From assembly GCF_018200035.1 (NCBI RefSeq), contig NZ_CP073581.1, positions 926,501 through 990,500 on the forward strand: a stretch of 64,000 nucleotides of DNA, in the 5' to 3' direction. Shown here piece after piece: positions 2,454 to 17,225 of the stretch. The translations under genes were made by a program, and so were the position numbers. Source of the stretch: Sulfitobacter albidus. GTDB taxonomy: Bacteria; Pseudomonadota; Alphaproteobacteria; Rhodobacterales; Rhodobacteraceae. The notes beneath the pieces are model-generated. The model searched no databases and had not been told where the DNA came from. It was given only the letters and a program-made list of their open reading frames with translations. Each line of letters starts with the position of its first letter. Position 1 is the first letter of the stretch.

Positions 2454-3626
2454 TCAGGCGGGACCAAGACTGCGCCCGGGCGGCGCTGCATCGAAACGGC
2501 TGAGTTCAGACGAACTGACATCCTTGAAAGACGGGATGCCAAGCTGACCCAATGCGCGGGTCAGTTCCAATTGCAATATATCGAACGCGCGCCCGGCGCC
2601 CGCGTCATCCCCGGCACCGACACCGTAGGCAAACGCGCGCCCGGCAAAGGCAAAATCGGCCCCAAGGGCTTTTGCGCGCAGGATATCCGCACCCCGCCGG
2701 ATACCACTGTCGAGGATCAGGGTCATGCGGCCCGCGACGGCTTCGGCGATGGCGGGCAGGGCGTCGATCGTCGGCGGGCCAAAGGCTACCTGACGGCCGC
2801 CGTGGTTGGACACGACAATCCCGTCGCAGCCAATGTCGGCGCAGGCCACCGCATCCTTTGCATGCAGAATACCTTTGACCAAAAGCCTGCCCCGCCAGCG
2901 GGCCCGCAAGCGTTTGAGGTCTTCCCATGTAAATCCGGGCGTAATCAGGGTTTTCTGCACCTCCGCGTAGGATGTAGCGCTTTTCAAAAGATCAGCGTAG
3001 TTCGCCACGTTCGGCGTGCCGTGTTTCAGACTGGTGAGCGCCCAACGCGGGTTCATGGCGCATTGCAGGATCACCTCGGGTGTAAACCGAAACGGCACCG
3101 CAAGCTGGTTGCGGATGTCGCGGTCACGCTTGCCCGCGGCAGGGACGTCCGCCGTGACCATCAACGTGGTGTAGCCTGCGGCCTCTGCCCGCGCGATCAG
3201 CCCTTCGGTGACATCCGCATCGCTGGACACATATAGCTGAAACCAGCCGTTTCCGTCCGCGGCTTCGGCAAGCTGTTCCAGCGTGGTCGAGGAGGCTGAA
3301 CTGGCCGTGTAGGGGATGTTTTGCGCCTTGCACAATCGCGCAAGCGTCAGGTCCGCCCCCGGCCAGAATGCGTTGAGCATGCCGATGGGAGCCATGCCGA
3401 AGGGCGCATCGAAAGTCTGTCCGAACACGGTTGCGCTTGTGTCGATGGTGGAGACATCCACCATGTAGCGGGGGGTCAGTTCGACATTCTCGAAGGCTTC
3501 GGTGTTGCGGCGCATGTTGCGTTCGTTTTCCGCCCCGCCATCCACCAGATCAAACGCAAAGCGCGGGATGCGGCGTTTGGCGCGCAGCCGCAAGTCTTCG
3601 ATAGAGGCCGCGCGGTCGAGCCCCAT
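2454..3626 (-). CDS. FMN-dependent alpha-hydroxyacid (L-lactate-type) dehydrogenase
   Basis: About 390 residues with the LldD/glycolate-oxidase TIM barrel. The catalytic His-Arg pair is in SNHGGRQ, the FMN-binding lysine in LLVKGIL, and the C-terminal phosphate-binding part in LDSGIRRGADI and FAGRAFAYG. Family enzymes oxidise (S)-2-hydroxyacids such as L-lactate to 2-ketoacids and pass electrons to quinone or oxygen. The ATG overlaps the stop of the upstream SDR (TGATG), which favours this start; a GTG at 3638 is the alternative. It is the last gene of the minus-strand arm. The hydrolase at 16371 is predicted to release a 2-hydroxyacid, which would make this the final oxidation step (inference). 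Confidence 0.87.
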   Translation of the reverse strand: MGLDRAASIEDLRLRAKRRIPRFAFDLVDGGAENERNMRRNTEAFENVELTPRYMVDVSTIDTSATVFGQTFDAPFGMAPIGMLNAFWPGADLTLARLCKAQNIPYTASSASSTTLEQLAEAADGNGWFQLYVSSDADVTEGLIARAEAAGYTTLMVTADVPAAGKRDRDIRNQLAVPFRFTPEVILQCAMNPRWALTSLKHGTPNVANYADLLKSATSYAEVQKTLITPGFTWEDLKRLRARWRGRLLVKGILHAKDAVACADIGCDGIVVSNHGGRQVAFGPPTIDALPAIAEAVAGRMTLILDSGIRRGADILRAKALGADFAFAGRAFAYGVGAGDDAGAGRAFDILQLELTRALGQLGIPSFKDVSSSELSRFDAAPPGRSLGPA

Positions 3627-4369
3627 CAGATCGACCACCCGCCATCCACGGCAAAGGCCTGGCCGGTGGTGAAGGCCGACAGGTCCCCGGCCAGATAACA
3701 GACCATTTCGGCAATTTCCGCAGGGCGGCCAAGTCGGCCCATGGGCTGGCGTTCCTTGAATGCGGCGAGAGCTTTGTCGAAGTCGCCGGTCGCGCTCAAC
3801 CGGTCGTTCAGGGACGGGCTTTGCACTGTGCCGGGGCAGATCGCGTTGCAGCGTATGCCGTCACGGACAAAGTCGGCGGCGATGGCCTTTGTCATCCCGA
3901 TGATCGCCGCCTTTGACGCGCCGTAGGCAAAGCGGCGCGGCGCGCCTTTTTCGCTGGAAACGATGGAGGAGATATTGATGATCGAACCGCACTTGTTGGC
4001 GAGCATGCCCGGCAGCACGGCCTTTGTGACGCGGTACATGGCCTTGGCGTTCAGAGCGAAGGCGCGATCCCAGACGTCCTCGTCGACATCAAGGATCGTG
4101 CCATCGTGTACCCAGCCTGCGCAATTGAGCAGGATGTCCAAGGGACCGGCGGACGCCACAAGTGCCTGCACAGCTGCCGCGTCCAGCACATCGAGTTCGT
4201 GGGCTGTGATATTCGGGGATGTGCGGGCCAATTCGGTAACGGCCGCGCTGTCCAGATCGGTCGCGATGACCTGTGCACCCCGTGCGGCAAGCGCCTCGGC
4301 ACTCGCCCGTCCGATACCTGCACCCGCCGCGGTGATTAGCGCGGTCTTGCCTGTCAGGGATTGATCCAT
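3626..4369 (-). CDS. SDR oxidoreductase, 2-keto-3-deoxy-L-fuconate dehydrogenase-like (DHRS6 family)
   Basis: A 247-residue classical short-chain dehydrogenase. The cofactor motif is TAAGAGIG near residue 14, followed by ATDLD, which implies NAD(H) preference. The active site is Ser (ISSIVSS) with YGASK. The segments CAGWVHDGTILD, ADFVRDGIRCNAICPGT and the C-terminal DGGWSI closely resemble DHRS6/BDH2 and bacterial 2-keto-3-deoxy-L-fuconate dehydrogenases. Those enzymes oxidise C4 of 2-keto-3-deoxy sugar acids to the 2,4-diketo acid. The frame stays open upstream, but the ATG at 4369 has an AGGAAG site and a family-typical N-terminus. It is 10 bases from kduD and overlaps the FMN dehydrogenase. 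Confidence 0.85.
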   Translation of the reverse strand: MDQSLTGKTALITAAGAGIGRASAEALAARGAQVIATDLDSAAVTELARTSPNITAHELDVLDAAAVQALVASAGPLDILLNCAGWVHDGTILDVDEDVWDRAFALNAKAMYRVTKAVLPGMLANKCGSIINISSIVSSEKGAPRRFAYGASKAAIIGMTKAIAADFVRDGIRCNAICPGTVQSPSLNDRLSATGDFDKALAAFKERQPMGRLGRPAEIAEMVCYLAGDLSAFTTGQAFAVDGGWSI

Positions 4370-4379
4370 AGTCTTCCTC

Positions 4380-5144
4380 CTACCGGGCGAGCCAGCCACC
4401 GTCGACGGTGACCACGCTTCCGTGGCAATAGTTGGCCGCGTCTGACGCCAGAAAAACCGCCGCCCCCGCGATTTCCGACGGGTCCGCGAAACGGCCCGCC
4501 GGAATGCGTTCGAGCAACGCCCTCGAGCGGTCGGGATCGTCGCGCAGCGCTTGTGTGTTGTCGGTAGCGGTGTAGCCCGGCGCGATGCTGTTGACGTTGA
4601 CACCGTGCGGTGCCCATTCGTTGCACAGAGCTCTGGTCAGGCCGACAACCGCGTGTTTGCTGGCGGCATACGCGGGTACGCGCAGGCCGCCCTGCGATGC
4701 GAGGACAGAGGACACGATGATGATCTTGCCAGCGCCCTGGGCAACCATGTGCGTCCCCGCCGCCTGAGATAGCAACCAGACGGAGTCGAGGTTCACCGAG
4801 AGCACGCGCCGCCAGTCCTTGAGCGGCATGTCAGTGCTCTCTTCGCGGTGGATGATGCCAGCGTTGTTGACCAAGATGTCCAGCCCGCCGAGGGCGTCGC
4901 TGGCAAAGCCTATGACCTGCTTTGCGGCTGCTTCATCCATGTCGGCAAAGTCGGCCTGCACGGCGGCGCCCTTGACGCCCAATTCCCCGATCCTGGCGAG
5001 GGTGTCGTCGGGTTGATGGCTGCGATAGGTCAGCGCCACGTTGGCCCCGGCGGCGGCAAGGCCAAGGGCGATGCCTTCGCCGATGCCGGTCGCCCCTCCG
5101 GTGACCAAGGCGCGGCGGCCTGTCAAATCAAACGGGTTGCCCAT
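4380..5144 (-). CDS. kduD: SDR, KduD-like 2-dehydro-3-deoxy-D-gluconate 5-dehydrogenase
   Basis: A 254-residue short-chain dehydrogenase with TGGATGIGEG for cofactor binding, the NNAG motif, and Ser plus YAASK in the active site. Long stretches follow the KduD pattern: WRRVLSVNLDSVWLLSQA, ASKHAVVGLTRALCNEWA, INSIAPGY-type NSIAPGYTATDNTQALR, LLERIPAGRFADPSEIAGAA, and the C-terminal VDGGWLAR. KduD normally interconverts 2,5-diketo-3-deoxygluconate and 2-keto-3-deoxygluconate. Here it sits beside a second sugar-acid SDR in a cluster with no pectin or alginate genes, so the real substrate may differ. The stop of the M24 gene is two bases upstream. Confidence 0.85.
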   Translation of the reverse strand: MGNPFDLTGRRALVTGGATGIGEGIALGLAAAGANVALTYRSHQPDDTLARIGELGVKGAAVQADFADMDEAAAKQVIGFASDALGGLDILVNNAGIIHREESTDMPLKDWRRVLSVNLDSVWLLSQAAGTHMVAQGAGKIIIVSSVLASQGGLRVPAYAASKHAVVGLTRALCNEWAPHGVNVNSIAPGYTATDNTQALRDDPDRSRALLERIPAGRFADPSEIAGAAVFLASDAANYCHGSVVTVDGGWLAR

Positions 5145-5145
5145 G

Positions 5146-6456
5146 TCAGTACCGGTTCGCGATCGGCAACTCTTCCGCGGGGAAGAGGCTGATGACCTCG
5201 CAGCCGGTTTCGGTCACGACGACTTCTTCCTCGATCCTTGCGGCGGAATAGCCATCGGTCGCAGGGCAGTAGGTTTCCAGTGCAAAGACCATGCCTGTCT
5301 TGATCTCCATCGGGTGATCCATCGACACGGCGCGCGAAATGATCGGTCGCTCGTGCAGGGCAAGTCCGAGTCCGTGGCCAAATTGTAGCCCAAAGGCCTG
5401 ATCTTCATTCGCAAAGCCAAGCGATTGCGCGGTCGGCCAGACCTCGGCCACCTTGTCGGTAGACACGCCCGGTTTGATCATCGCGATGGACGCATCAATC
5501 CATTCGCGTGCCTTGGTATAGGCGTCGTTCTGCGACGGGGTTGCGCGGCCCACGTTGAAGGTGCGGTAGTAACAGGTGCGATAGCCCTGATAGGATTGCA
5601 GGATGTCAAAGAAGGCCTGATCGCCGGGCCGGATCAAACGGTCCGTGAAGTTGTGCGGGTGCGGATTGCAGCGCTCACCGGAAATGGCGTTGATCGCCTC
5701 CACATCGTCCGATCCCATCTCGTAGAGCATCTTGTTGGACAGCGCGACGATATCATTCTCGCGCACACCCGGTTTCAGCTCTTCGTAGATCATGTGGTAC
5801 ACGCCATCGACCATTGCAGCCGCTTGGGTCAAAAGCTGGATCTCATCGGTGTTCTTGATCTCGCGCGCGGCCAGCATGATCTGTTGGCCGTCGACAACGT
5901 TCAGGCCTTCCTGTTGCAGCGCGTGGAACATCGCCGTTTCAGCATAATCCACACCAACGGGCATGTCGGCCATGCCGGCGTCGCGGATCAATCCGGCGAT
6001 CTGCTTGGCGTATTTCTGCATCAAGCCGAATTCAGGCGGGATCGTGCCGCGCATCCCGACGACGCCAGCAAGGCAATGGCTGGGCTCCAGCCAGTCGGAA
6101 TGCCGCTTGTGGTGTTCGGCGGCGGATCCGAAATCCCAGACATAGGGGCTGTCGTCGCCTGTCAGCAAACAGAAACGGCACATCTTGTCTCGCTCCCATT
6201 CGCCGATCTTGGTCGCCGAGACATAGCGGATGTTGTTCACATCGAACAAAAGCAGCGTGCCCGCATTCGACGCCTTGAGCGATTGCCGTGTCCGCGCGAG
6301 GCGGTAGCGGCGCAGGCGGTCATGATCGATGCGGCGCTCAAAATCCACGGACATGTGACCATGCGCCGGCAGCTTTTCGCGCCATTCCCAGTTCGGTTCG
6401 AGGTCCTGCGGTGTAAGCAGGTTCGGCATAAGGGCATTGCCCGGACGTTCTGACAT
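5146..6456 (-). CDS. M24 (creatinase/DddP-like) family hydrolase with an altered metal site
   Basis: A 436-residue two-domain pita-bread protein. The N-terminal domain includes FDVNNIRYVS (about 71-80); the catalytic domain spans about 205-430. By alignment with the five M24 metal ligands I read Asp284, His361 (in GHGLG), Glu394 and Glu409. The second Asp, normally 11 residues after the first, is Cys295 (in GYRTCYYRTF). His368 (in LHE) is kept. The family covers aminopeptidases, prolidases, creatinases and the DMSP lyase DddP, so the substrate cannot be named. The start at 6456 has an AAGGAGA site; an upstream extension would overlap the neighbouring SDR. Cotranscription with the sugar enzymes suggests cleavage of a sugar-linked or amide substrate (inference). 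Confidence 0.8.
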   Translation of the reverse strand: MSERPGNALMPNLLTPQDLEPNWEWREKLPAHGHMSVDFERRIDHDRLRRYRLARTRQSLKASNAGTLLLFDVNNIRYVSATKIGEWERDKMCRFCLLTGDDSPYVWDFGSAAEHHKRHSDWLEPSHCLAGVVGMRGTIPPEFGLMQKYAKQIAGLIRDAGMADMPVGVDYAETAMFHALQQEGLNVVDGQQIMLAAREIKNTDEIQLLTQAAAMVDGVYHMIYEELKPGVRENDIVALSNKMLYEMGSDDVEAINAISGERCNPHPHNFTDRLIRPGDQAFFDILQSYQGYRTCYYRTFNVGRATPSQNDAYTKAREWIDASIAMIKPGVSTDKVAEVWPTAQSLGFANEDQAFGLQFGHGLGLALHERPIISRAVSMDHPMEIKTGMVFALETYCPATDGYSAARIEEEVVVTETGCEVISLFPAEELPIANRY

Positions 6457-6520
6457 GGAAGTCTCCTTCGGGGCGCGCTGGGCCCCGTTCTGAAGTTCAG
6501 GTTGGAAAAGGGGGGGTGCG

Positions 6521-7330
6521 TTACTGGATGCACCAGCCGCCATCGACGTGGATCATCTGGCCGGTCATGTAGTCGCTGTCATCGGACGCGAGGAAGGATG
6601 CGGTCCCGACGATGTCCTTTGGGTAGGACACACGTTTGATCTGAAGTGCGTCGCGCACGATATCGTCGTAGGCCTGGCCTTCCTTTTCCTTGAAGCCGAT
6701 ATCGACGAGATCCTTGTCGAGCTGTTCCCAAAGCGGCGTCACAACGACGCCGGGCGCGTACCCGTTCACGGTGATGCCATGCTCCGCAAGACCGATGGCG
6801 CCGCAATGGGTCAGGGCAAGGCAGCCGTATTTCGACGTGCAGTAGACGGTGACATCCACCAGCGGTTTGCGCGACGCGATGGAGCCGACATTGATCAGCT
6901 TGTAGGGGTGATCGTCCATCGGGCCCTGGGCGATCATCTGGCGGGCGGTTTCCTGCATGCCCAGCCACATCGCCTTCGTATTGACGTTCATGATGAGATC
7001 CCAGTTGTCCTCGTCGATATCCATGAAGAACCGGGGCTTGTTCAGGCCTGCATTAAAGACGCCGACATTGATGGACCCGAACGCCTCGACCGTTGCGGCC
7101 ACGGCTGCGGCATTGTCCGCACGTTTGGTGACATCCATTTTCACGGCAATCGCCCTGCCGTTTCCGGCTGCGTTGATCTCGTCTGCGACGGTCTGAGCCG
7201 TGTCGGCATCAAGATCACCAAGGCACACGTTTGCCCCTTGCCCGGCAAAGGATCGCGCGTTGGCCTCACCCATGCCGCGCGCGGCACCTGTGATGAGAAT
7301 ATTCTTACCTTGAAGGCGTTTGGGGTCCAT
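6521..7330 (-). CDS. SDR family oxidoreductase (polyol/sugar dehydrogenase-like)
   Basis: 269 residues with TGAARGMGEA as the cofactor loop, an acidic residue after beta-2 (LGDLD, NAD preference), NAG, Ser (VGSIASRK) and YCTSK. The C-terminus ends in DGGW. It is a clear relative of the SDR at 10442-11239 in the opposite arm: both have GMQE.ARQMIAQG, FAPGVV or YAPGVV, WEQ.D..L..IG, and SDYMTGQ near the end. Relatives act on polyols, acetoin or sugar alcohols. In this cluster it could oxidise C1 of a free sugar or another hydroxyl, which is inference. It starts 24 bases after the regulator stop, so the regulator gene heads this operon. Confidence 0.8.
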   Translation of the reverse strand: MDPKRLQGKNILITGAARGMGEANARSFAGQGANVCLGDLDADTAQTVADEINAAGNGRAIAVKMDVTKRADNAAAVAATVEAFGSINVGVFNAGLNKPRFFMDIDEDNWDLIMNVNTKAMWLGMQETARQMIAQGPMDDHPYKLINVGSIASRKPLVDVTVYCTSKYGCLALTHCGAIGLAEHGITVNGYAPGVVVTPLWEQLDKDLVDIGFKEKEGQAYDDIVRDALQIKRVSYPKDIVGTASFLASDDSDYMTGQMIHVDGGWCIQ

Positions 7331-7354
7331 GGGTGTCTCCTCCTGACGTCATGA

Positions 7355-9184
7355 CTACGGTGGTGATAAAGTTGCGTCCGCCCGTTGCTGGGCGCGGCGC
7401 AACGCGTCCTGCGGGCTGATGATGCCGCGCAGCATGTCGTGAAACTCTTCTCCGCAAATCTGGATGACTTCGTCGATTTCGGGGATCGGCGGCCGTGGCC
7501 AGAACTGCAGCTCATCGCGCCAGCACATCCCGTCGACGGCTTCGAATATCGGGGACAGACGTCGCACGTCGGGATCCGAGGCGACGGAATAGCGCGGATT
7601 GGTCCGGCTGCCATTTTGTACATACAGCTTTTGCGCGGAAGGAGAGGTGAAGACCAGCAAGGCCTCAACCGCTGCGGCGACGCGTTCCTTGGGCAGGTTG
7701 GCCGGTATTCCCATGATATAGCCGCCTACCGGGGCGATGGCCGCCCCGTTCGGCCCTGCCGGGTGCGGCAGGTAGCCGGTCTGGTCCTTGGCGGGCGATG
7801 CATCATCGAGCTCAAAATAGGGAGCGAGCAGGGTGTAGCCGTAAGCCATCGCGATCTGCCCGGCGGCATAGGGCCGGATGCGTTCGTACCACGACATCGA
7901 CAGGATATCGGGCGGCGAATAGTTCAGCAGCTCCTTGAGGAATTCCGCCGCTTGCAATCCTGCCGGGGTGTCGATCGTGAAGCGGTAATCGCGGTTGGCG
8001 AGATGTTGCGTCTCGTAGCCCCCTGCAATCGGCTTCAAATCCAAAATGGGTTGTCCGAAATCCGCCAGTGTCATGAGAACCGTGTGACCCAATGCCGTCC
8101 CGCGCGCCGCGTTCCAGGCAATGCCGTGCAGGCCGCGCTGCGGATCGTGCAGCGCTCTTGCGGCGGTCAGCAGATCCTGTGTCGTTTGCGGCGGCTTCAG
8201 GCCCGCCTGCGCAAAAAGATCCTTGCGGTAGAAAAGCAATTCCGGGGTCGTCTGTGCCGGGATACCGTACGCGCGTCCGCCCCAATGGGCGGCTTGCCAG
8301 CCAGCCGTGTGAAAATCCGATGGATCAATGCGAGCAATGTCCATGGCTTCATCAAGCGGCATCAGGACGTCATTTTCGGCAAAGCCTCCGACCCAAGGCA
8401 GATCAACGGCAACGATGTCATAGGTGCTGGACTTGCGCGCGGCATTGCGCATCGTTTCTTCCCGCAGACGATCAATTGAAAAGGCCCGTTGGTGGATTTG
8501 CGTGCCGATTGTCTGTTCGAACTGGCGCTTGAGATTGTCCATCACCATGAAAGTCGGATCGCCATGCACCAGAACACGCAGCCCACCCGCGAGCTTCAGC
8601 GGCTCGGAAAGGACCTTCATTGGCGGGATCGACTTGGCGCTGAGATAGGATTCACCAAAATAGTATTCTGATGTCTCATCTGCTGCAGCCCCGCCAAACT
8701 GGGCGTGTGCAAGGCGCTGTACGCGGCTGGTCAATCGCGTCCATTGATCGAGCAACTCAACACTTGGGTGCAGCGAAAAGCTTTTTCCCGTGTCTGTGCG
8801 TGGCCGCTGATCAATCAGGCCCGCCAGCTGCATGTCCTTTATGCGGCGATTTGCCGTTGCGTAGGGGGCGCGGCTTGCACCGATCAGGGACGACATCGTG
8901 GTAAGCCGCCCTTCGAGATGTCCGCGGATCAGGTGCATCGTAATGCGCAGGTTCGGCGTGGCGGCAAACAGCTCGGACGTGCTTTCAAGCTCATCGCCGA
9001 GATTTTCCAGAAAGGAGAGAACGCTCAGCACATCTGCTTTTGCCTGAGGCGGCATCAGGTGATTGAAACTCTCTCCCCTCATCGCGTTCATACCCTCAGC
9101 CGTTGCCTTCCGTTTCTTTGAGCGTGGGTCCGATTGGTCTCGGCTCCGCGGATTGTTCACTTTGGATGATTTTTGACTCACCAC
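7355..9184 (-). CDS. Transcription regulator: winged helix fused to a family-1 solute-binding-protein fold
   Basis: About 609 residues, read from a GTG at 9184 that follows TGAGGT; TTG at 9232 is a weaker alternative. Residues 1-45 are charged and probably disordered. Residues about 75-160 form a MarR-like winged helix-turn-helix (TTMSSLIGASRAPYATANRR, then a wing). From about 200 to the end the sequence is a SBP_bac_1 fold, with GWQAAHWGGRAYGIPAQ and FYRKDLFAQAGLKPPQT typical of maltose-type binding proteins. There is no signal peptide or lipobox, so the binding domain should be cytoplasmic. I infer a one-component sensor of an imported sugar or metabolite. It heads the minus-strand operon and faces the transporter operon. 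The architecture is unusual and I know no characterised example. Confidence 0.82.
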   Translation of the reverse strand: MVSQKSSKVNNPRSRDQSDPRSKKRKATAEGMNAMRGESFNHLMPPQAKADVLSVLSFLENLGDELESTSELFAATPNLRITMHLIRGHLEGRLTTMSSLIGASRAPYATANRRIKDMQLAGLIDQRPRTDTGKSFSLHPSVELLDQWTRLTSRVQRLAHAQFGGAAADETSEYYFGESYLSAKSIPPMKVLSEPLKLAGGLRVLVHGDPTFMVMDNLKRQFEQTIGTQIHQRAFSIDRLREETMRNAARKSSTYDIVAVDLPWVGGFAENDVLMPLDEAMDIARIDPSDFHTAGWQAAHWGGRAYGIPAQTTPELLFYRKDLFAQAGLKPPQTTQDLLTAARALHDPQRGLHGIAWNAARGTALGHTVLMTLADFGQPILDLKPIAGGYETQHLANRDYRFTIDTPAGLQAAEFLKELLNYSPPDILSMSWYERIRPYAAGQIAMAYGYTLLAPYFELDDASPAKDQTGYLPHPAGPNGAAIAPVGGYIMGIPANLPKERVAAAVEALLVFTSPSAQKLYVQNGSRTNPRYSVASDPDVRRLSPIFEAVDGMCWRDELQFWPRPPIPEIDEVIQICGEEFHDMLRGIISPQDALRRAQQRADATLSPP

Positions 9185-9235
9185 GGTATTGACCTCATTG
9201 TGATGTGGGACTGGCTTTGAGATGTATCGCAAAAA

Positions 9236-9271
9236 TATCCATAATGGATAATTTTCTATCCAAATTGGATA
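9236..9271. promoter_or_regulatory. Twin 15-bp palindromic operators between the divergent arms
   Basis: Two near-identical perfect inverted repeats occur at 9236-9250 (TATCCATAATGGATA) and 9257-9271 (TATCCAAATTGGATA). Each has 7-base arms around a central A. Their centres are 21 bases apart, two helical turns, so two dimers would bind the same DNA face. The site lies 52 bases before the regulator start and 132 bases before the binding-protein start. I infer that the regulator at 7355-9184 controls both operons from here. The AT-rich block also probably contains the promoters, but I cannot assign -10/-35 boxes with confidence. Confidence 0.72.
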
Positions 9272-9402
9272 CTATTCGGGAGGTTATGTTGCCGAGCGCA
9301 ATGCAACGTGGGGGAGATCCCGTCGGTCAGCCGATGGTGATTCCCCCCTGCGGGAGGGCGGGGAGAAGAGAAAAAGCCTGAATACTCTTGGAGGAGATCA
9401 AA

Positions 9403-10371
9403 ATGACACTACGCACAACCCTTACGGCAACCGCCGCAACGACAGCACTGACGCTTGCCGGGGCAGCCTATGCAGATGGCCACAGCCCGATGCGCATCGG
9501 CATCACGCAAAACAACGTGGGCGTCGACAGCTACCAGACGACGTATGAAAAGGCGTTCATTGCTGCTGCAGAAGCAAACGAGAACGTCGAGGTCGTCGTT
9601 CTAGATGCAGGTGGCGATGTGGCCCGGCAGATCGCGCAGATGGAAGATCTGATCCAGCAGGAGGTCGACGCCATCATCATCTGGCCCACAAACGGTGAGG
9701 CCGTGATCCCAGCAGTACGCAAGGCGCATTCCGCCGATATCCCGGTCGTCGTGACCAATTCAAACATCGCTGAGGCCGGTTTCGATTTTGTCGCGACCTT
9801 CTCTGGCCCCGACAACGTCACGCAGGGGGCGCGTTCTGCCGAGATCATGTGTGATCGCTTCAAGGCGCTGGGGATCGAGACCGAAGCACGCGTTGTGCAG
9901 ATTTCGGGTCAACCCGGCTACACGACTGCCATCGAGCGTCAGCAGGGTTTTGATGATCGTCTGCCGGAAGTGTGCCCGGACGTTACGTTGGTCGAGACAC
10001 AGCCGGGCGACTGGAACCGTGAAAAATCCCAGCAGGTCATGGAGGCATTCCTGGTCAAATACGATGACATCGATGGCGTTTACGCCGGCGATGACAACAT
10101 GGGTGTCGGTGCCCTGAACGCGGCTCTTGCGGCCGACCGTGCCGAAGGCATCACCTTCGTTGGCGCGACCAACTTTGCGGTTGGGTATGAGGCCATGGAA
10201 CGGGGCGAGTATTGGGGGTCGATCTACCAGTCGCCCGTTGATGATGCGGAAGCGGCGCTCAAGTCCGCGATTGACCTGATTAGCGGTGAAGACCTTCCGT
10301 TTCTGAACTACTTCGACACGCCGAAGATCACGCAGGACAATATGACGGAATTTACAAAGCCTGTGTTCTAA
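9403..10371 (+). CDS. Sugar ABC transporter periplasmic substrate-binding protein (ribose/LacI-like fold)
   Basis: 322 residues. A Sec signal peptide (MTLRTTLTATAATTALTLAG, likely cleaved after AYA) is followed by a Peripla_BP_4 type-I binding protein, with RIGITQNNVG as the first strand and VDAIIIWPTNGEAVIPAV and GVYAGDDNMGVGAL as the usual hinge-side motifs. The ATG is preceded by GGAGGAG. Proteins of this class bind pentoses, hexoses or deoxy-sugars for BPD_transp_2-type importers, which are encoded downstream. It is the first gene of the plus-strand arm. The ligand is unknown; the enzymes around it suggest a deoxy-sugar or sugar acid (inference). Confidence 0.9.
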   Translation: MTLRTTLTATAATTALTLAGAAYADGHSPMRIGITQNNVGVDSYQTTYEKAFIAAAEANENVEVVVLDAGGDVARQIAQMEDLIQQEVDAIIIWPTNGEAVIPAVRKAHSADIPVVVTNSNIAEAGFDFVATFSGPDNVTQGARSAEIMCDRFKALGIETEARVVQISGQPGYTTAIERQQGFDDRLPEVCPDVTLVETQPGDWNREKSQQVMEAFLVKYDDIDGVYAGDDNMGVGALNAALAADRAEGITFVGATNFAVGYEAMERGEYWGSIYQSPVDDAEAALKSAIDLISGEDLPFLNYFDTPKITQDNMTEFTKPVF

Positions 10372-10385
10372 GCACTTCCCGTGGT

Positions 10386-10409
10386 GCGGGGCGCCTCGTG
10401 GCTCCCCGC
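10386..10409 (+). terminator. Intercistronic hairpin after the binding-protein gene
   Basis: GCGGGG-c-GCC-tcgt-GGC-t-CCCCGC forms a GC-rich stem with one mismatch and a four-base loop, 14 bases after the stop. There is no T tract, so it is more likely a partial attenuator or 3' mRNA stabiliser than a full terminator. Such hairpins commonly let a binding protein be made in excess over the permease subunits encoded downstream. Confidence 0.55.
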
Positions 10410-10441
10410 TGAACAACTGCTCAAAAACGGGGAGATACATC

Positions 10442-11239
10442 ATGGGACGTGTGAACGGTCGATCCTGTATCGTCACAGGTGCCGCCCAAGGTATCGGTCG
10501 CGCAATTGCCGAAGCGTTACTCGATGAAGGCGCTGACGTCTGTTTTGCGGACATCAACGGCGACAAGGTCGCGCAGGTCGCGGCTGCGAACGTTGACCGG
10601 GCCGCGCAATACGGCGGCAAGGTGACGCATCGGCAGGTCGATGTCACCGATCGCGCATCCGTCAAGGCGATGATTGCTCAGGCGGTCGATCACTTTGGCA
10701 AACTTGACGTCAAATTCAACAATGCCGGTGTGAACCGGCCAATGAATTTCCTTGAAGTCACCGAGGACAACTGGAATTTCATCATGGGGGTCAACGGCTT
10801 GGGCTGCATGATCGGTATGCAGGAAGCGGCCCGTCAAATGATCGCCCAAGGGACGGGCGGCAAGATCATCAACACGGCCTCGATCGCGAGCCGTCAGGGA
10901 TTTGACAATGTCGCTCCGTATTGCGCCAGCAAATTTGCGGTCGTGGCGCTGACCCAATCGGGCGCGCGCGATTTGGCAAAGCACAACATCACAGTTACCG
11001 GATTTGCCCCCGGGGTCGTTGCGACGGAAATGTGGGAGCAGGTCGATCAGAACCTGATGGAAATCGGCGCCGCAGACCGGCCGGGACAGGCGATGGAGGA
11101 GTTTTCGTCGGAGATCCTGCGCGGTCGCGTCGCGACAACCGAGGATATCACCGGCACAACGACGTATCTGGCGTCGCGCGACAGCGACTACATGACCGGG
11201 CAGATCGTCATGATCGACGGCGGGATGACACTGGTCTGA
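10442..11239 (+). CDS. SDR family oxidoreductase within the transporter operon
   Basis: 265 residues with TGAAQGIGRA, ADING (acidic after beta-2, NAD-type), NNAG, Ser (TASIASRQG) and YCASK, ending in DGGMTLV. It is paralogous to the SDR at 6521-7330. It lies between the binding-protein and permease genes, which is unusual for an ABC importer operon and suggests it acts early on the imported compound, for example as a sugar or polyol dehydrogenase (inference). A ribosome site (GGGGAG) precedes the ATG. The specific substrate cannot be read from sequence. Confidence 0.82.
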   Translation: MGRVNGRSCIVTGAAQGIGRAIAEALLDEGADVCFADINGDKVAQVAAANVDRAAQYGGKVTHRQVDVTDRASVKAMIAQAVDHFGKLDVKFNNAGVNRPMNFLEVTEDNWNFIMGVNGLGCMIGMQEAARQMIAQGTGGKIINTASIASRQGFDNVAPYCASKFAVVALTQSGARDLAKHNITVTGFAPGVVATEMWEQVDQNLMEIGAADRPGQAMEEFSSEILRGRVATTEDITGTTTYLASRDSDYMTGQIVMIDGGMTLV

Positions 11240-11262
11240 CGCCGGGCACTTGGGAGGGAACT

Positions 11263-12236
11263 ATGGCAGAGATGTCCAAATCAGACATTGGCCGGTTTTT
11301 GGCACGGCAGGGCATTTTGATTGCTTTTGCGGTGTTCATCATCGGATTCACGCTCGCGAACGAACGGTTCTTGAGCCCTGACAATGTGATGGGCGTTCTG
11401 CGGTCGTCCGCGATCCTGGGTGTCATGGCGCTAGGGGTGACATTTGTCGTCATCAGCGGGAACCTCGATCTGTCGGTCGGCTCAATGATGTCGTTCTCGA
11501 CGATCGTGGTTCTGGATCTGCATGACAAGATTGGCCCCGCCCTTGCCATTCCTGCGATGTTTGGCATGACGCTGTGTCTGGGGGCTTTCATCGGGTTTCT
11601 GGTGGGGTATCTGAAGCTCAATTCCCTGATTGTCACCCTGGGCATGTTGTCGGCCATTCACGGCCTGACACTGACATACTCGGGGGCCAGAACATGGATC
11701 TGGCTGACAAGGAAGGCACGTGGTTCGGCGTTTTCGGGCAGGGAACTGCGCTCGGAATTCCGGTGCCCATCCTCATTTTCGTGGCTTTGGCTGCCCTTCT
11801 GGGCATCATTTTGGCAAAGACGCCCTTCGGGCGCAAAGTCTATGCGGTTGGTGGCAACGGGACGGCCGCGACCTTCTCGGGGATCAAGCGCGCGCGTGTG
11901 GTTTTCCTGTGCTACGTGATGTCCGCGTTCTGTGTGGCCGTCGCGGGGCTTATTCAGGCCAGCCGCTCCCTTGGCTCGCAAAACACGGTTGGCCAGGGGC
12001 TTGAACTTGATGTTCTGGCGGCGGTGATCCTGGGTGGCGCGTCCTTGCTTGGCGGGTCGGGCACAATCTTCAAAACCGTGATTGGCGTGCTGATCCTTGG
12101 GTTCATCCAGAATGGCCTCCTGTTGGTCGGCCTGCAATTTTACGTCCAATTCGTGGTGACATGGGTGATCATCATTCTTGCGGTCTGGCTCGATATCGCG
12201 GCCAAGCGCGGTAAGCTTTGGTCAAGCATCGCGTAA
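11263..12236 (+). CDS. Sugar ABC transporter permease (frame broken at a G run)
   Basis: A BPD_transp_2 (RbsC/AraH-type) permease of about 324 residues if one base is restored. From the ATG the frame gives the first membrane helices and ISGNLDLSVGS, then fails after LTLTYSG. The rest continues in another frame as GGQNMDLADKEG through FGRKVYAVGGN, LLGGSGT and the final helices. The break is at the five-G run 11682-11686; a sixth G restores TCG-GGG-GGC-CAG. All other operon genes are intact, so a base-call error is more likely than a real null mutation. It pairs with the permease at 12249-13250 to form a heterodimeric channel. Confidence 0.85.
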
Positions 12237-12248
12237 GGGAGCGGAAGA

Positions 12249-13250
12249 ATGGAAGCCGGAAAACTGTCCAAATTTCTCAAGAATGGCGCGATCTGGGGCT
12301 TTATCGTGCTTGAGCTGATCTTTTTCAGCGTGGCGGGTGAATTCCTGTCCCTGTCCGACAAGGCGTTCATGGATCTCGACAACATGCTGCTGTTGCTCAA
12401 GCAGTCGGCGCCCATCGGCATTATCGCCATGGGGATGACGATCATCATGGTGAACGGAAACATCGATCTGAGCGTGGGTGCGATTTTTGCGCTCTCGGCG
12501 GTGATCCTGCTCGACAGTATGACGTGGGCGGCGTTTGCGGGGCTGGGCGATTGGGTCATCCCCGTATCCTGGGGTCTGGCCTTGCTGACGGGCGTCGTCC
12601 TGGGGGCGATCAACGGGTTGATCGTGTGGAAAACGGGGGTCGATGCCTTCATCGTCACGCTTGGGTCGATGCTGGGCTTTCGCGGGCTGGTGTTCATGTA
12701 CAACGGTGAAAATCCGACATCGAGCCTGAACTGGACCTTGGTGGATTTTGCCGAAGCGCAGTTTCTGGGGCTGCACACCGCGACATGGTTTCTGGCCGTC
12801 GTTACGCTGGTCATCTGGTACGTGATGACGCGCACCATCCACGGGCGCAACGCCTACGCCATCGGCGACAACCGCGAGGCGGCGGTGAATGCGGGCATCA
12901 AGGTCGGACCGCACATGCTGATCAATTTCATGATCATCGGCTTTCTTGCGGCCTTGTCGGCGGTGGTTTTCTATTCCGAATCCGGCTCGGTCAATCCGAA
13001 TGACGGCCAGCTCTACGAGCTTTGGGTCATCACTGCGGTGGTCCTTGGCGGAACCAAATTGACGGGTGGCTCGGGATCTATCGTTGCGACCCTGGGCGGG
13101 GTTTTGGCCATTCAACTCCTGCGCAAGGGTTTGGGCCACATTGGTGCGGATACCTCGACCGTCAATCTCGTGATCGGACTGATCCTGATCGCCGTGCTGT
13201 TTCTTGACCGCCAGTTGAACGCCAAGGGCAAAGAGGAGTTGAAGATATGA
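12249..13250 (+). CDS. Sugar ABC transporter permease
   Basis: 333 residues, about 8-10 membrane helices, BPD_transp_2 family. It carries the same landmarks as its partner: MVNGNIDLSVGAIFALS, an EAA-like cytoplasmic loop with RNAYAIGDNREAAVNAGI, and the glycine-rich GGTKLTGGSGS. It forms the membrane channel with the protein at 11263-12236. Its stop overlaps the ATPase ATG (ATGA). Two different permease genes in one operon are normal for part of the CUT2 family. Confidence 0.9.
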   Translation: MEAGKLSKFLKNGAIWGFIVLELIFFSVAGEFLSLSDKAFMDLDNMLLLLKQSAPIGIIAMGMTIIMVNGNIDLSVGAIFALSAVILLDSMTWAAFAGLGDWVIPVSWGLALLTGVVLGAINGLIVWKTGVDAFIVTLGSMLGFRGLVFMYNGENPTSSLNWTLVDFAEAQFLGLHTATWFLAVVTLVIWYVMTRTIHGRNAYAIGDNREAAVNAGIKVGPHMLINFMIIGFLAALSAVVFYSESGSVNPNDGQLYELWVITAVVLGGTKLTGGSGSIVATLGGVLAIQLLRKGLGHIGADTSTVNLVIGLILIAVLFLDRQLNAKGKEELKI

Positions 13251-14761
13251 CCAAACAAACACCTGCCTTGCGTCTTGAAGGGATCGTCAAAACCTTCCCC
13301 GGTGTGCGCGCGCTTGATGGCGTTTCCTTTTCGGTGATGCCGGGCGAAGTCCACGCGCTGATGGGGGAGAACGGGGCCGGAAAATCGACATTGATGAAGG
13401 TTCTGGGCGGTATTTACCAGCCCGAGGAAGGCCAGATCATCGTGGAGGAAGTCCCGACCGTCATGACGTCCCCGTTGCAGGCCAAGTCAAAGGGGATCGT
13501 CTTTATTCATCAGGAACTCAGCCTGGCCGAAGAGCTGACAGTCGCCGAAAATATCTATCTGGGGGAGCTGCCGCGCCGCTCGTTCGGGCGCGTCGATTGG
13601 GCCACGCTCTATGCGCAAACCGACGCAATCCTGAAGAAGTTGAACGTCGGCTTCGACGCAAAGACGATTGTCGGTGATCTGTCCATTGCCAACCAGCAAA
13701 TGGTCGAGATTGCCCGCGCGCTGACGGTGGATGCCAAGGCGGTGATTTTTGACGAGCCGACGGCGTCGCTGACCGACGCGGAAAAGGTCGTTTTGTTCGA
13801 TGTCATAGCCGACCTGCAAAGCCGGGGGGTGGGCATCATCTACATCTCTCACCGAATGGAAGAGATTTTCAAGATCACCGACCGGATCAGCGTCCTCCGG
13901 GACGGCTCTTATCGCGGAACGCTGGAAACCCGTGCCACCAGCGAGGAAGAAATCACGCAACTGATGATTGGCCGCGCGCTTGATTTGTCGCGTGAACCAA
14001 GCCGTCACGCGCTGGGTGATGTCGCTCTTGAAGTGCGTGGGCTGTCGTGCGGAGACCTGTTCACGGATGTCAGTTTTGAGGTCCGCCGCGGCGAGGTGCT
14101 GGGGTTTTACGGTCTGGTCGGGGCAGGGCGCACCGAAATCGCAGAGACGCTCTTTGGTTTGCGCGACCCGAGTGCGGGGCAAATTCTGCTGGACGGCGAG
14201 GAGGTTCGAATCTCCTCCCCCGCCGATGCCATCGCCAAGGGCATTTCGCTGGTGCCGGAGGATCGCAAAGGTCAGGGTCTGGTCCTGGGCATGAACTGCC
14301 GTGACAACATGACCCTGCCTCAGGTGGGTGATCTGTCATCCAGCCCGTTTGTCGCGACCGGTGCCGAGACAGAGATCTTTGATACGTACAAAGACAAGCT
14401 GGATATCCGAACGCCGGGCTGGAAGCAGACGGTGGGCAACCTTTCCGGTGGCAATCAGCAAAAGATCGTCATTGGCAAATGGCTGTCGATGCACCCCAAG
14501 GTCCTGATCGTGGACGAGCCGACCCGCGGGATCGACGTGGGATCAAAGTCCGAAATTCACAACCTGATCCGATCGTTGGCCGCCCAGGGCTATGCTGTCA
14601 TCGTGGTCAGCTCCGAGATGCCCGAAGTGCTGCACGTCAGCGACCGGATCGTCGCGATGTTCTCGGGCAGGGTCATGCGGACCTTCACCTCCGAAGAAGT
14701 CACCGAAGAGAGCCTCATTCAGGCGATTTCAGGGATCACAGCCAGCGACAAGGTCGCCTGA
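13247..14761 (+). CDS. Sugar ABC transporter ATP-binding protein (RbsA/XylG type)
   Basis: 504 residues with two fused nucleotide-binding domains. Domain 1 has Walker A GENGAGKST, LSIANQQM in place of the signature, and Walker B VIFDEPTASL. Domain 2 has the degenerate Walker A (GLVGAGRTE) usual in this CUT2 class, then LSGGNQQK and LIVDEPTRGIDVG. It powers import through the two permeases upstream. The start overlaps the preceding permease stop and the following gene begins one base after its own stop, so the operon is tightly packed. Confidence 0.93.
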   Translation: MTKQTPALRLEGIVKTFPGVRALDGVSFSVMPGEVHALMGENGAGKSTLMKVLGGIYQPEEGQIIVEEVPTVMTSPLQAKSKGIVFIHQELSLAEELTVAENIYLGELPRRSFGRVDWATLYAQTDAILKKLNVGFDAKTIVGDLSIANQQMVEIARALTVDAKAVIFDEPTASLTDAEKVVLFDVIADLQSRGVGIIYISHRMEEIFKITDRISVLRDGSYRGTLETRATSEEEITQLMIGRALDLSREPSRHALGDVALEVRGLSCGDLFTDVSFEVRRGEVLGFYGLVGAGRTEIAETLFGLRDPSAGQILLDGEEVRISSPADAIAKGISLVPEDRKGQGLVLGMNCRDNMTLPQVGDLSSSPFVATGAETEIFDTYKDKLDIRTPGWKQTVGNLSGGNQQKIVIGKWLSMHPKVLIVDEPTRGIDVGSKSEIHNLIRSLAAQGYAVIVVSSEMPEVLHVSDRIVAMFSGRVMRTFTSEEVTEESLIQAISGITASDKVA

Positions 14762-14762
14762 C

Positions 14763-15629
14763 ATGCGCGTTGGCTTTGCAGGGCTGGGCCGCATGGGCCA
14801 GCACATGGCGCGCAACCTGATCGCGGCCGGTCATGAGGTGTACGTCTGGAACCGGACCGCGGAAACGGCAAAGGATTTTGCGAAAAACGAGGCGTGCATC
14901 GCCGTGGTAGATCCTTCCGATCTGATCGCGCAGGCGCAGATCGTCATCACCATGCTGGCCGATGACAGTGCATCCGATGCCGTGCATCTGGGCGAAGGCG
15001 GATTGTTTGCCTCAACCAGCGGCGCAACCCTCGTCGAGATGGGTACGATGAGCCCGGACCACATCAGCGAACTTGTCGCTAGGGCCCCTGACAAAATTCG
15101 GGTGATCGATGCGCCCGTTTCGGGCGCGACAAAAGCCGCCGAAGATGCGGATCTGCTGATAATGGCGGGATGTCGTCATGCCGATCCAGATCTGGCGGCC
15201 GTCTTCGATGCGCTTGGACGGCAGACCATCTACCTGGGGCAATCCGGCGCGGGGGCGGTGATGAAACTGGCGGTGAATTCGCTGATCCACGGGATCAATC
15301 AGACGCTTGCCGAAGCAATGACCTTGGCCGAAGCCTCCGGCATTGCGCCCGCTCTCGCTTTCGATGTGATAGAAGCCTCCGCTGCCTGTGCGCCGATGCT
15401 CAAATATCGGCGTTCGCTTTATCTCAATGAGGCGGAGCACGATGTCACGTTCACGGTAGCGCTGGCGCGCAAGGATATGGAAGTGACGGCAGGGCTTGCA
15501 GATCGGCTTGGCACCGCGATGCCACAAGGCCGTGCGACCCTGGCCAAATTGATCGACGCGGAAAAGGCGGGCTACGGCGCCCGCGATATGGCGTCAGTCC
15601 TGGATTTTATGCGAAAGGAAAGACCATGA
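14763..15629 (+). CDS. NAD(P)-dependent beta-hydroxyacid dehydrogenase (3-hydroxyisobutyrate dehydrogenase-like)
   Basis: 288 residues. The N-terminal Rossmann motif GLGRMGQHMARNL, substrate motif DAPVSGATKAAED, and catalytic lysine in GAGAVMKLAVNSLIHGINQT define the family. Members act on 3-hydroxyisobutyrate, tartronate semialdehyde, threonate, or sulfolactaldehyde; the sequence does not separate these. It begins one base after the ATPase stop and overlaps the ThuA gene by four bases. In a sugar-acid pathway it could reduce or oxidise a C3-C4 intermediate, which is inference only. Confidence 0.85.
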   Translation: MRVGFAGLGRMGQHMARNLIAAGHEVYVWNRTAETAKDFAKNEACIAVVDPSDLIAQAQIVITMLADDSASDAVHLGEGGLFASTSGATLVEMGTMSPDHISELVARAPDKIRVIDAPVSGATKAAEDADLLIMAGCRHADPDLAAVFDALGRQTIYLGQSGAGAVMKLAVNSLIHGINQTLAEAMTLAEASGIAPALAFDVIEASAACAPMLKYRRSLYLNEAEHDVTFTVALARKDMEVTAGLADRLGTAMPQGRATLAKLIDAEKAGYGARDMASVLDFMRKERP

Positions 15630-16333
15630 AAGCAGCGCTTTTTGTTGGCGGCTGGGAAGGCCACACGCCGACCGATTTTGCGGGGTGGTACAAAGATTTG
15701 CTGGAAGAAAACGGTTTTGGCGTCGAGGTCTACGACACGCTTGAACCGCTCTCGCAGCCTGAAGACTTGGCGGATGTCGATCTGATCACGCCGATCTGGT
15801 CCTCTGCGCGCTCGGGCCACCGTGAAGAGTTCGGCAATATGACAAAGCCGCAGGAGGACGGTCTGTTGCAGCTGATCGCGAATGGCTGCGGGATCGCGGG
15901 CTGGCACGGGCACATGGGGGACGCGTTTCGCGACCGCCCGACCTATCATTTTCTGATCGGAGGCCAGTTCGTCGCGCACCCGCCCGGATGGCCCGACAAT
16001 CTTCAGCCGCGCGAAGACTACATTGATTATGATGTGACGATCTGCAAGCCGGACGATCCAATCGTGCAAGGCATCAAAAGCTTCCGGCTGACGAGCGAGC
16101 AATACTACATGCTCGTCGATCCCTCGAACGAGGTTCTGGCGACCACGACATTTTCGGGCGATCACCTGTGGTGGATCGAAGGCACCGTGATCCCGGTCGT
16201 CTGGAAGCGCCGCTGGGACAAGGGGCGCGTCTTCTATTGCTCGATAGGCCATGAACTGGATGACCTGAAGGTGCCGCAGGTGACCGAGATCATTCGCCGT
16301 GGGGCGCTGTGGGCGGCACGCGACACAGCCTGA
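15626..16333 (+). CDS. ThuA-like domain protein
   Basis: 235 residues matching the ThuA-like, glutamine-amidotransferase-like fold: FVGGWEGHTP at the N-terminus, DLITPIWSS, the GCGIAGWHGHMGDAF segment (residues about 90-104), SEQYYMLVDPSNEVLATT, and a final VFYCSIGHELDD. ThuA proteins occur in disaccharide and modified-sugar catabolic operons, often with oxidoreductases, and their chemistry is not well settled. The ATG overlaps the preceding stop. I cannot assign a reaction; cotranscription ties it to the imported carbohydrate. Confidence 0.82.
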   Translation: MKAALFVGGWEGHTPTDFAGWYKDLLEENGFGVEVYDTLEPLSQPEDLADVDLITPIWSSARSGHREEFGNMTKPQEDGLLQLIANGCGIAGWHGHMGDAFRDRPTYHFLIGGQFVAHPPGWPDNLQPREDYIDYDVTICKPDDPIVQGIKSFRLTSEQYYMLVDPSNEVLATTTFSGDHLWWIEGTVIPVVWKRRWDKGRVFYCSIGHELDDLKVPQVTEIIRRGALWAARDTA

Positions 16334-16370
16334 TGCCAACAAAATCTCCGATCAAACACGAGGATACGCT

Positions 16371-17225
16371 ATGAAACTTCTCCGCTATGGTGCGCCCGGC
16401 GCAGAAAAACCAGGCCTTCTGGATGCATCGGGCCGGGTCCGCGATTTGTCAGGCGTCGTGCCGGACATCTCCGGGGACGCATTGCGCCCCGCCGGTCTGA
16501 AGACCTTGCAGGCGCTGGATCCCGAGACGCTGCCCCTTGTCGATGGGACGCCGCAAGACGATCTGCGCCTTGGGGCCTGTGTTGCGAATATCGGCAAATT
16601 CGTCTGCATCGGCCTGAACTATGCCGATCACGCCGAAGAGGCGGGCATGCCAATCCCCGAAGAACCCATCATCTTCAACAAGTGGACCTCTGCGGTGGTC
16701 GGCCCGAACGATGATATCCGGGTCCCGCGCGGCTCGGTCAAGACGGATTGGGAGGTCGAATTGGGCGTCGTGATCGGCGAACCGGGGTCGTATATCGACG
16801 AGACCGATGCGATGGATCATGTCGCGGGTTTTTGTGTCATCAATGACGTGTCCGAGCGTGATTTTCAGCTTAACCGTGCCGGTACGTGGGACAAGGGCAA
16901 AGGCTGCGACACCTTTGGCCCGACAGGTCCGTGGCTTGTCACACTTGATGAGATCGCGGACATGGACAACCTGGATATGTGGCTGGATGTGGATGGCAAG
17001 CGGATGCAGACCGGATCAACGTCGACACTGATCTTCAAGATCCCGCACCTCGTGTCCTATTGCAGTCAGTTCATGAGCTTGCAGGCAGGCGATGTGATTT
17101 CGACCGGGACGCCGCCGGGCGTTGGCATGGGCCAGACCCCCCCGCACTATCTGCACGGTGGTGAGGTTGTCACCCTGGGCATTGCCGGGTTGGGCGAACA
17201 ACGCTCAAAGGTAGTGCCGGGCTGA
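16371..17225 (+). CDS. FAH-family hydrolase, 2,4-diketo-3-deoxy-L-fuconate hydrolase-like
   Basis: 284 residues with a complete fumarylacetoacetase-family domain. CIGLNYADHAEEAG (from about residue 80), the metal-binding DWEVELGVVIG, INDVSERDFQ, GKGCDTFGPTGPWLVT and VISTGTPPGVGMG are visible. These match the subfamily that hydrolyses 2,4-diketo-3-deoxy-L-fuconate or -rhamnonate to pyruvate and L-lactate. It is the last gene of the plus-strand arm, while its predicted partner dehydrogenase (3626-4369) and lactate-oxidising enzyme (2454-3626) close the other arm. The split supports joint control by one regulator. The exact sugar remains open. Confidence 0.85.
   Translation: MKLLRYGAPGAEKPGLLDASGRVRDLSGVVPDISGDALRPAGLKTLQALDPETLPLVDGTPQDDLRLGACVANIGKFVCIGLNYADHAEEAGMPIPEEPIIFNKWTSAVVGPNDDIRVPRGSVKTDWEVELGVVIGEPGSYIDETDAMDHVAGFCVINDVSERDFQLNRAGTWDKGKGCDTFGPTGPWLVTLDEIADMDNLDMWLDVDGKRMQTGSTSTLIFKIPHLVSYCSQFMSLQAGDVISTGTPPGVGMGQTPPHYLHGGEVVTLGIAGLGEQRSKVVPG

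Follow-up and report, generated by a model that had tools for sequence, protein, structure and literature searches.

Next to the genes of a CUT2 importer, Sulfitobacter albidus carries a gene whose product combines a sugar-binding domain with an N-terminal extension. Does this gene encode one more component of transport, or a regulator that senses with a borrowed binding-protein fold? We addressed this question in a window of 64,000 nucleotides, namely, the whole stretch of DNA that was analysed. The product is almost certainly a transcription regulator of the one-component type that resides in the cytoplasm; databases file it as a secreted sugar-catching protein. To the main reading, in which this cytoplasmic regulator acts on two dyads at 9236-9271, we assign a probability of about 0.86. 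The features of the gene are as follows.

7355..9184, minus strand: wHTH-SBP_bac_1 regulator, 609 aa from GTG 9184, or 578 aa if the start is ATG 9091
8696..9049, minus strand: MarR-like winged helix flanked by long helices (P0002 residues 15-132; structure models and fold matches)
about 8825-8863, minus strand: recognition helix of the regulator, as modelled
8636..8695, minus strand: disordered linker (P0002 residues 133-152, pLDDT under 50)
7373..8581, minus strand: SBP_bac_1 type II binding-protein domain, the proposed sensor (Pfam, phmmer, model and fold matches)

The minus-strand frame from 9184 to 7355 contains no internal stop and offers three possible starts, namely, TTG 9232, GTG 9184 and ATG 9091, of which the ATG is used by the database protein of the S. 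albidus genome (P0002, 578 aa). The GTG start, which adds a basic 31-residue tail, is also plausible, because several relatives with 86-90% identity measure 605-610 aa and cover 99-100% of the query in the protein search, and because a GAGG is placed 8 nt ahead of GTG 9184. The domain order is a MarR-like winged helix, a disordered linker and a full SBP_bac_1 domain, without a signal peptide; judged by model and sequence, the DNA-binding and sensor domains lie in one soluble chain, which is what defines a one-component regulator.

At E up to 0.1, SBP_bac_1 (97.6 bits; Pfam cut-off 26) and SBP_bac_8 were the only Pfam families found on the regulator, and structure comparison identified the sensor as a full-size MalE-type domain of about 400 residues. 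Export was assessed on the first 45 aa, from the length of the longest run free of charged residues and of N, Q, H and P. This run does not exceed 9 residues (median 5) in 360 family proteins, and reaches at least 16 in 78 secreted controls, consisting of the importer binding protein of the window, 76 of its orthologues and the secreted relative L025; by this test, a hydrophobic leader core was found in none of the 360 family proteins and in all 78 controls. For the protein of the window, the run measures 3 residues in P0001, 8 in P0002 and 4 in the TTG form. A hydropathy window did not discriminate, with values of 1.32 for the exported-looking binding protein of the importer, 1.45 for the regulator and 2.02 for L025.

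Modelled alone, the winged helix has a pLDDT of 94, and the model and its fold matches display the helices, the wing and the long terminal helices of the MarR fold, the matches themselves being moderate (Foldseek best E 1.1e-3, TM about 0.5). The recognition helix, as modelled, contains an invariant R82 and a nearly invariant T79. No Pfam HTH family, MarR included, matched the regulator's own winged helix, and five N-terminal domains tested, this one among them, stayed below the cut-offs of MarR_2 (best 19.8 bits; cut-off 27) and MarR (best 19.3; cut-off 24.6). MarR_2 matched 12 of 39 whole members at E up to 0.05, and the paralogue L020 passes the HTH_IclR cut-off. The original prediction was of a cytoplasmic one-component regulator with a winged helix in residues 60-165, followed by an SBP_bac_1 domain without a signal peptide. 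Pfam, the structure models and the run-length test bear out this architecture, with the MarR-like winged helix modelled at residues 46-163 of the 609-aa form and no hydrophobic core before the binding domain, and they support the cytoplasmic assignment.

The putative operator lies between the regulator and the divergent importer, and consists of two 15-bp dyads (TATCCANNNTGGATA) exactly 21 bp apart.

9236..9250, no strand: operator dyad 1, TATCCATAATGGATA, a perfect dyad; comparative evidence
9257..9271, no strand: operator dyad 2, TATCCAAATTGGATA, a perfect dyad centred 21 bp from dyad 1
9272..9402, plus strand: leader of the transporter operon, with candidate hairpins in many relatives

Conservation was scored in 80 named loci (L026-L105) out of 144 confirmed. 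At a spacing of 21 bp, the dyad pair shows no more than 6 mismatches out of 24 in 79 of these loci, and no more than 5 in 72, all 80 being related and hence not independent; the best other spacing between 15 and 31 bp gives 10 of 80 loci at up to 6 mismatches. No pair at up to 6 mismatches appeared in 1600 shuffles, which keep base composition only. The palindromic positions are conserved across loci, and the spacer and the centre vary; that the latter drifted while the dyad positions held is characteristic of a protein site under selection. In its own genome the exact dyad occurs twice, both times at this operator, with two single-mismatch sites elsewhere, and the pair is seen at 6 mismatches in the Phaeobacter inhibens plasmid locus, whose protein is 76% identical. 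The comparative evidence thus argues strongly for the DNA at 9236-9271 as the operator, as had been proposed from the sequence at the outset, and the conserved operator suggests that the winged-helix regulator beside it would be the protein that binds the dyads. Further conserved intergenic columns flank the operator in L026-L105, at about -48 to -33 and +41 to +73.

The genes on both sides point to uptake and breakdown of a small compound. In the counts given below, presence means at least 50% identity, some contigs end early, and the SDRs can be mistaken for one another.

2454..3638, minus strand: FMN-dependent 2-hydroxyacid dehydrogenase, LldD-like, under the NCBIfam cut-off
3626..4603, minus strand: third SDR, domain from near ORF residue 80
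4380..5144, minus strand: KduD-like SDR, under the NCBIfam cut-off
5146..6543, minus strand: M24-family (DddP-like) hydrolase, 75/80 loci
6521..7330, minus strand: SDR dehydrogenase SDR1, next downstream of the regulator, 78/80 loci
9403..10371, plus strand: CUT2 importer binding protein (Peripla_BP_4, by Pfam), 79/80 loci
10442..11239, plus strand: SDR dehydrogenase (upstream SDR), 71/80 loci
11262..12236, plus strand: CUT2 permease (BPD_transp_2), frame interrupted in this assembly
12249..13250, plus strand: CUT2 permease (BPD_transp_2); the two permeases are kept in 75/80 and 74/80 loci
13247..14761, plus strand: CUT2 ATPase, 73/80 loci
14592..15629, plus strand: ORF of a 3-hydroxyisobutyrate-dehydrogenase-like enzyme, domain from ORF residue 59
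15626..16333, plus strand: ThuA-domain protein
16299..17225, plus strand: FAA-hydrolase family enzyme

The first permease is split over the frames 10921-11919 and 11574-12236, an apparent frameshift in the assembly or the strain. Next to the operon, the segment 119-2385 encodes an ArsJ-associated GAPDH and ArsJ organoarsenical efflux pair, of ordinary arsenate detoxification. No CUT1 permease stands beside the regulator in the window, its neighbours being BPD_transp_2 permeases and a Peripla_BP_4 protein. The suggestion that the sensor did not come from its own importer therefore holds, since the binding protein of the importer is of the Peripla_BP_4 class and the sensor is SBP_bac_1.

With regard to the substrate, the solved relatives of the importer binding protein are CUT2- and ribose-type sugar binders, and among curated models SDR1 is best matched by acetoin reductase and L-iditol dehydrogenase, in either case under cut-off. 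Downstream of the M24 hydrolase, the 64 loci (from L026-L105) with at least 6 kb of sequence carry either an LldD-like dehydrogenase module (26 loci) or a pyruvate-dehydrogenase-like E1 module (38 loci), the latter often with an E2 and an aldehyde dehydrogenase; none has both and none has neither. Since the same regulator and operator stand before both modules, the ligand is more likely to be the substrate, or a product formed early, than an intermediate formed late. The members from Rhizobium WL3 and Skermanella (L192, L193) lie near intradiol dioxygenase and maleylacetate reductase genes, and these ring-cleavage neighbours are a hint of a cyclic compound in those hosts. Our guess is that the ligand is a sugar or polyol, linear or cyclic, and it may be either the imported compound or, as suggested at the outset, an intermediate made inside the cell; a search of the literature on the pathway and on Phaeobacter found nothing of use. 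As for divergence, the M24 hydrolase is 93-99% identical to that of the window in six loci (L026, L044, L060, L062, L075, L090) whose regulators are 67-89% identical, which indicates that the regulator evolves much faster than the enzyme.

Related dyads adjoin members that are only 32-48% identical, and in places they also precede enzyme genes. In subfamily D, TGTCAGANNTGGACA is found at up to 2 mismatches, 84-92 bp before the regulator, in seven of eight loci and in 0 of 400 shuffles, the motif having been derived from the same loci that were then scored; in L133, L134 and L135 another copy follows after 49 bp, and the motif was not found in L136. L017 holds TGTCCGGAGNGGACA twice, as TGTCCGGAGTGGACA and TGTCCGGAGCGGACA. 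In each of two small f30 genomes from another family (L123 and L124), one perfect TATTCANNNTGAATA precedes the regulator and another stands directly ahead of SDR1-M24. In L114, the gap that separates the importer genes from a divergent SDR1 holds two sites, each one mismatch off the degenerate pattern. Rhizobium WL3 carries two TATCCGNNNYGGATA sites, namely, TATCCGAAACGGATA ahead of the regulator's operon of two genes and TATCCGCTTTGGATA in another gap, and Skermanella has one site at one mismatch; a 21-bp dyad pair was found in neither (best 10 and 8 mismatches, respectively). No site was found upstream of the Agrobacterium member, and no dyad just upstream of the regulator in the subfamily F loci L018 and L019, which have one single-mismatch site each before a two-gene operon (L120 10692 and L122 7744), weak sites that are among five and four such in 18 kb. 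Searching the distant subfamilies for 21-bp dyad pairs by palindromicity alone gave nothing useful. R82 and T79 of the recognition helix would fit the GGA-type half site that the subfamilies have in common.

Past the operator, by about 45 nt, many leaders of L026-L105 contain a hairpin, ATCGTYCG-loop-CGRAYGAT, together with another hairpin that is rich in G/C, and the changes among them look compensatory. A stem of 8-of-8 was seen in 40 of 80 leaders and in 14% of shuffles, and the folding z of 76 leaders averages -1.1. Alignment folding of 79 leaders returned no structure (0.0), and no Rfam match was obtained in 9050-9450 at E up to 1; a riboswitch was considered and set aside on these two results, though single leaders share the hairpin. 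The operator is far from the importer gene: over 79 loci, the binding-protein match begins at a median distance of 135 bp. One promoter-like site was found, at 9217-9245, with its second hexamer inside dyad 1 and its first hexamer mostly not conserved, at a frequency near chance (1 found, 0.5 expected). No promoter could be placed with confidence, and by eye the conserved columns flanking the operator fit none.

Based on these results, we infer dimerisation of the regulator, its binding to DNA, repression over activation and the class of ligand, and propose the following mechanism. The MarR-like winged helix would form dimers that read the 15-bp dyad, and two dimers, separated by two helical turns, would occupy the same face of the DNA in the gap that divides the regulator from the CUT2 operon. 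The SBP_bac_1 domain, a secreted-type sugar binder by descent, would close on a small sugar- or polyol-like compound of the cytoplasm, its hinge motion would pass via the linker to the winged helices, and the ligand, as substrate or early intermediate, would free the dimeric repressor from the operator. Within this reading, it is reasonably likely that such release is what turns on the importer, two SDRs and the M24 hydrolase. In many marine bacteria, the regulator probably controls the adjoining operon for uptake and breakdown. The position of the operator between divergent starts, together with the overlap of the promoter-like site with dyad 1, makes occlusion plausible; since this site is near chance and its first hexamer is mostly unconserved, repression by occlusion rests on analogy.

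The sign of the regulation could also be the opposite. The same DNA-bound regulator may be an activator, with ligand-bound dimers recruiting RNA polymerase to the importer promoter, a possibility that rivals the mechanism above on sign only and is compatible with the core claim. We regard an activator as doubtful, in that MarR-like winged helices are mostly repressors and that the promoter which it would serve is not placeable with confidence; yet the distance from the operator to the importer gene is as long as an activator might have it, the conserved positions on both sides of the operator could be promoter elements, and positive control of sugar uptake is reported for DsvR in the available passage of its description (PMC13060122).

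Two further explanations would remove the regulator from its operator, or regulation from the protein. That the dyads belong to another transcription factor, the regulator acting elsewhere or via protein contacts, gains something from the fact that a footprint does not name its protein, and from the further conserved positions in the intergenic region, but related dyads adjoin members of several subfamilies and no other regulator is encoded among the window genes scanned (2454 to 17225), which makes this explanation improbable. More improbable still, to the point of being hardly tenable, is the annotated function, in which the protein would serve an ABC importer as a conventional substrate-binding protein whose N-terminal extension is unusual. 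The full SBP_bac_1 domain, the secreted relative L025 and the name substrate-binding protein, used by sources that name members among the matches listed, all agree with it. However, the run-length test finds no leader, the modelled winged helix has a near-invariant recognition helix, and the adjoining CUT2 genes bring their own binding protein in nearly every locus; a secreted binding protein was rejected on these grounds.

The protein belongs to a large alphaproteobacterial family, with at least 1708 relatives at E up to 1e-10 in the protein search. Members that bear a name are known from Rhodobacteraceae, Roseobacteraceae, Stappia, Hoeflea, Rhizobium, Agrobacterium, Shinella and Skermanella. 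In 17 of 100 genomes of the host's family, its own genome counted, a member was found at an E value of 1e-60 or lower; a subfamily D query against a larger draw of the same family gave 44 of 248 genomes, with up to three members per genome; and a class-wide draw, which scored at most four candidates per genome, gave at least 6 of 289 genomes at E up to 1e-80, including the host's own and one of the same genus. Among the matches listed, the sources call these proteins 'extracellular solute-binding protein', 'multiple sugar transport system substrate-binding protein' or similar, and once 'hypothetical protein'. Both domains are kept in members with 33-54% identity (alignment A1), which the tree divides into several subfamilies, and SBP_bac_1 and SBP_bac_8 matched all 39 members scanned.

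A fused subfamily D query returned 58 matches, 56 of which start within its first 28 residues, the exceptions being G420 (a 473-aa frame) and the secreted L025. A search with L025 likewise gave 58 matches; apart from L025 and G420, all 56 lie in frames of 561 aa or longer. Both searches indicate that close relatives of the sensor are nearly all fused. L025 (L121 7743-9092), which bears a signal peptide and is a secreted binding protein 39% identical to the sensor, is the only clearly unfused one of the 58; in a tree with one outgroup it falls inside the fused family, on a long branch and with weak support (80/59), and it is possibly a regulator turned back into a transport protein.

On balance, we lean towards a broader view, in which these proteins are a family of unrecognised regulators that about a sixth of the genomes in the host's family carry and that are filed as 'extracellular solute-binding proteins'. 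Each would be a MalE-type protein brought into the cytoplasm and joined to a MarR-like winged helix, and the subfamilies would recognise differing forms of a single dyad (T-R-T-C-C ... G-G-A-Y-A) and respond to compounds that resemble sugars, polyols or cyclitols. Since these probable regulators are annotated as transport proteins, regulon maps of marine Rhodobacteraceae and rhizobia likely miss them, and transporter surveys likely miscount. The operator is defined well enough for immediate testing and for regulon prediction, and the identity of the ligand would reveal the substrate of a conserved importer and M24-hydrolase pathway.

How does this build relate to known systems? Sugar regulators of the LacI/GalR type join an HTH to a type I binding-protein fold; at this locus that fold is found in the binding protein of the importer, not in the regulator. 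LysR-type regulators, such as CysB, combine a winged helix with a type II periplasmic-binding-protein-like sensor, whereas the regulator described here has a MalE-type domain of about 400 residues and matches neither HTH_1 nor LysR_substrate at E up to 0.1, so that membership of the LysR type was rejected on Pfam. MarR proteins, which are about 140-150 aa long and bind their ligand within that domain, have a similar DNA-binding fold, the 400-aa sensor being extra in the regulator. Secreted CUT1 sugar-binding proteins, such as 5iai Arad_9887 and the 1eu8 trehalose/maltose-binding protein, share the sensor fold (5iai, TMt 0.91, 26% identity; phmmer E 6.6e-29), but these are exported for transport, whereas the regulator lacks a signal peptide and has a winged helix.

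The general plan has precedents. According to the available part of one article, SgrR of E. coli and DsvR of V. cholerae are DNA-binding proteins with an N-terminal HTH and a C-terminal solute-binding domain (PMC13060122), and a survey, in the portion accessible, notes SBP domains in transcription regulators generally (PMC9602780). The present regulator resembles SgrR and DsvR in this domain order and in the lack of an export signal. The original prediction that no characterised regulator has this build was thus too broad, since both proteins, as far as those excerpts go, share the plan with another sensor family: the sensor of DsvR is SBP_bac_5, whereas here SBP_bac_1/8 is combined with a MarR-like winged helix, 21-bp-spaced dyads and a neighbouring CUT2 operon. 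Neither SgrR_N nor SBP_bac_5 was found on the regulator (Pfam E up to 0.1) or among the 12 families matched in 39 members (E up to 0.05), and with both Pfam features absent, membership of the SgrR family was rejected. No description of an SBP_bac_1 domain with a MarR-like winged helix was found among the literature matches listed, most subscription journals lying outside the search. Judged from these excerpts, what appears to be new is this pairing of sensor and winged helix, the plan itself being known. The same join has been made by engineers, as in 3woa, where lambda repressor(1-45) is fused to MBP, and in biosensor libraries that join an HTH to a binding protein (PMC6079105, in the part available). 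The regulator described here is natural, and its family would be the natural form of the engineers' goal, namely, a MalE-type binding protein wired to a DNA-binding domain.
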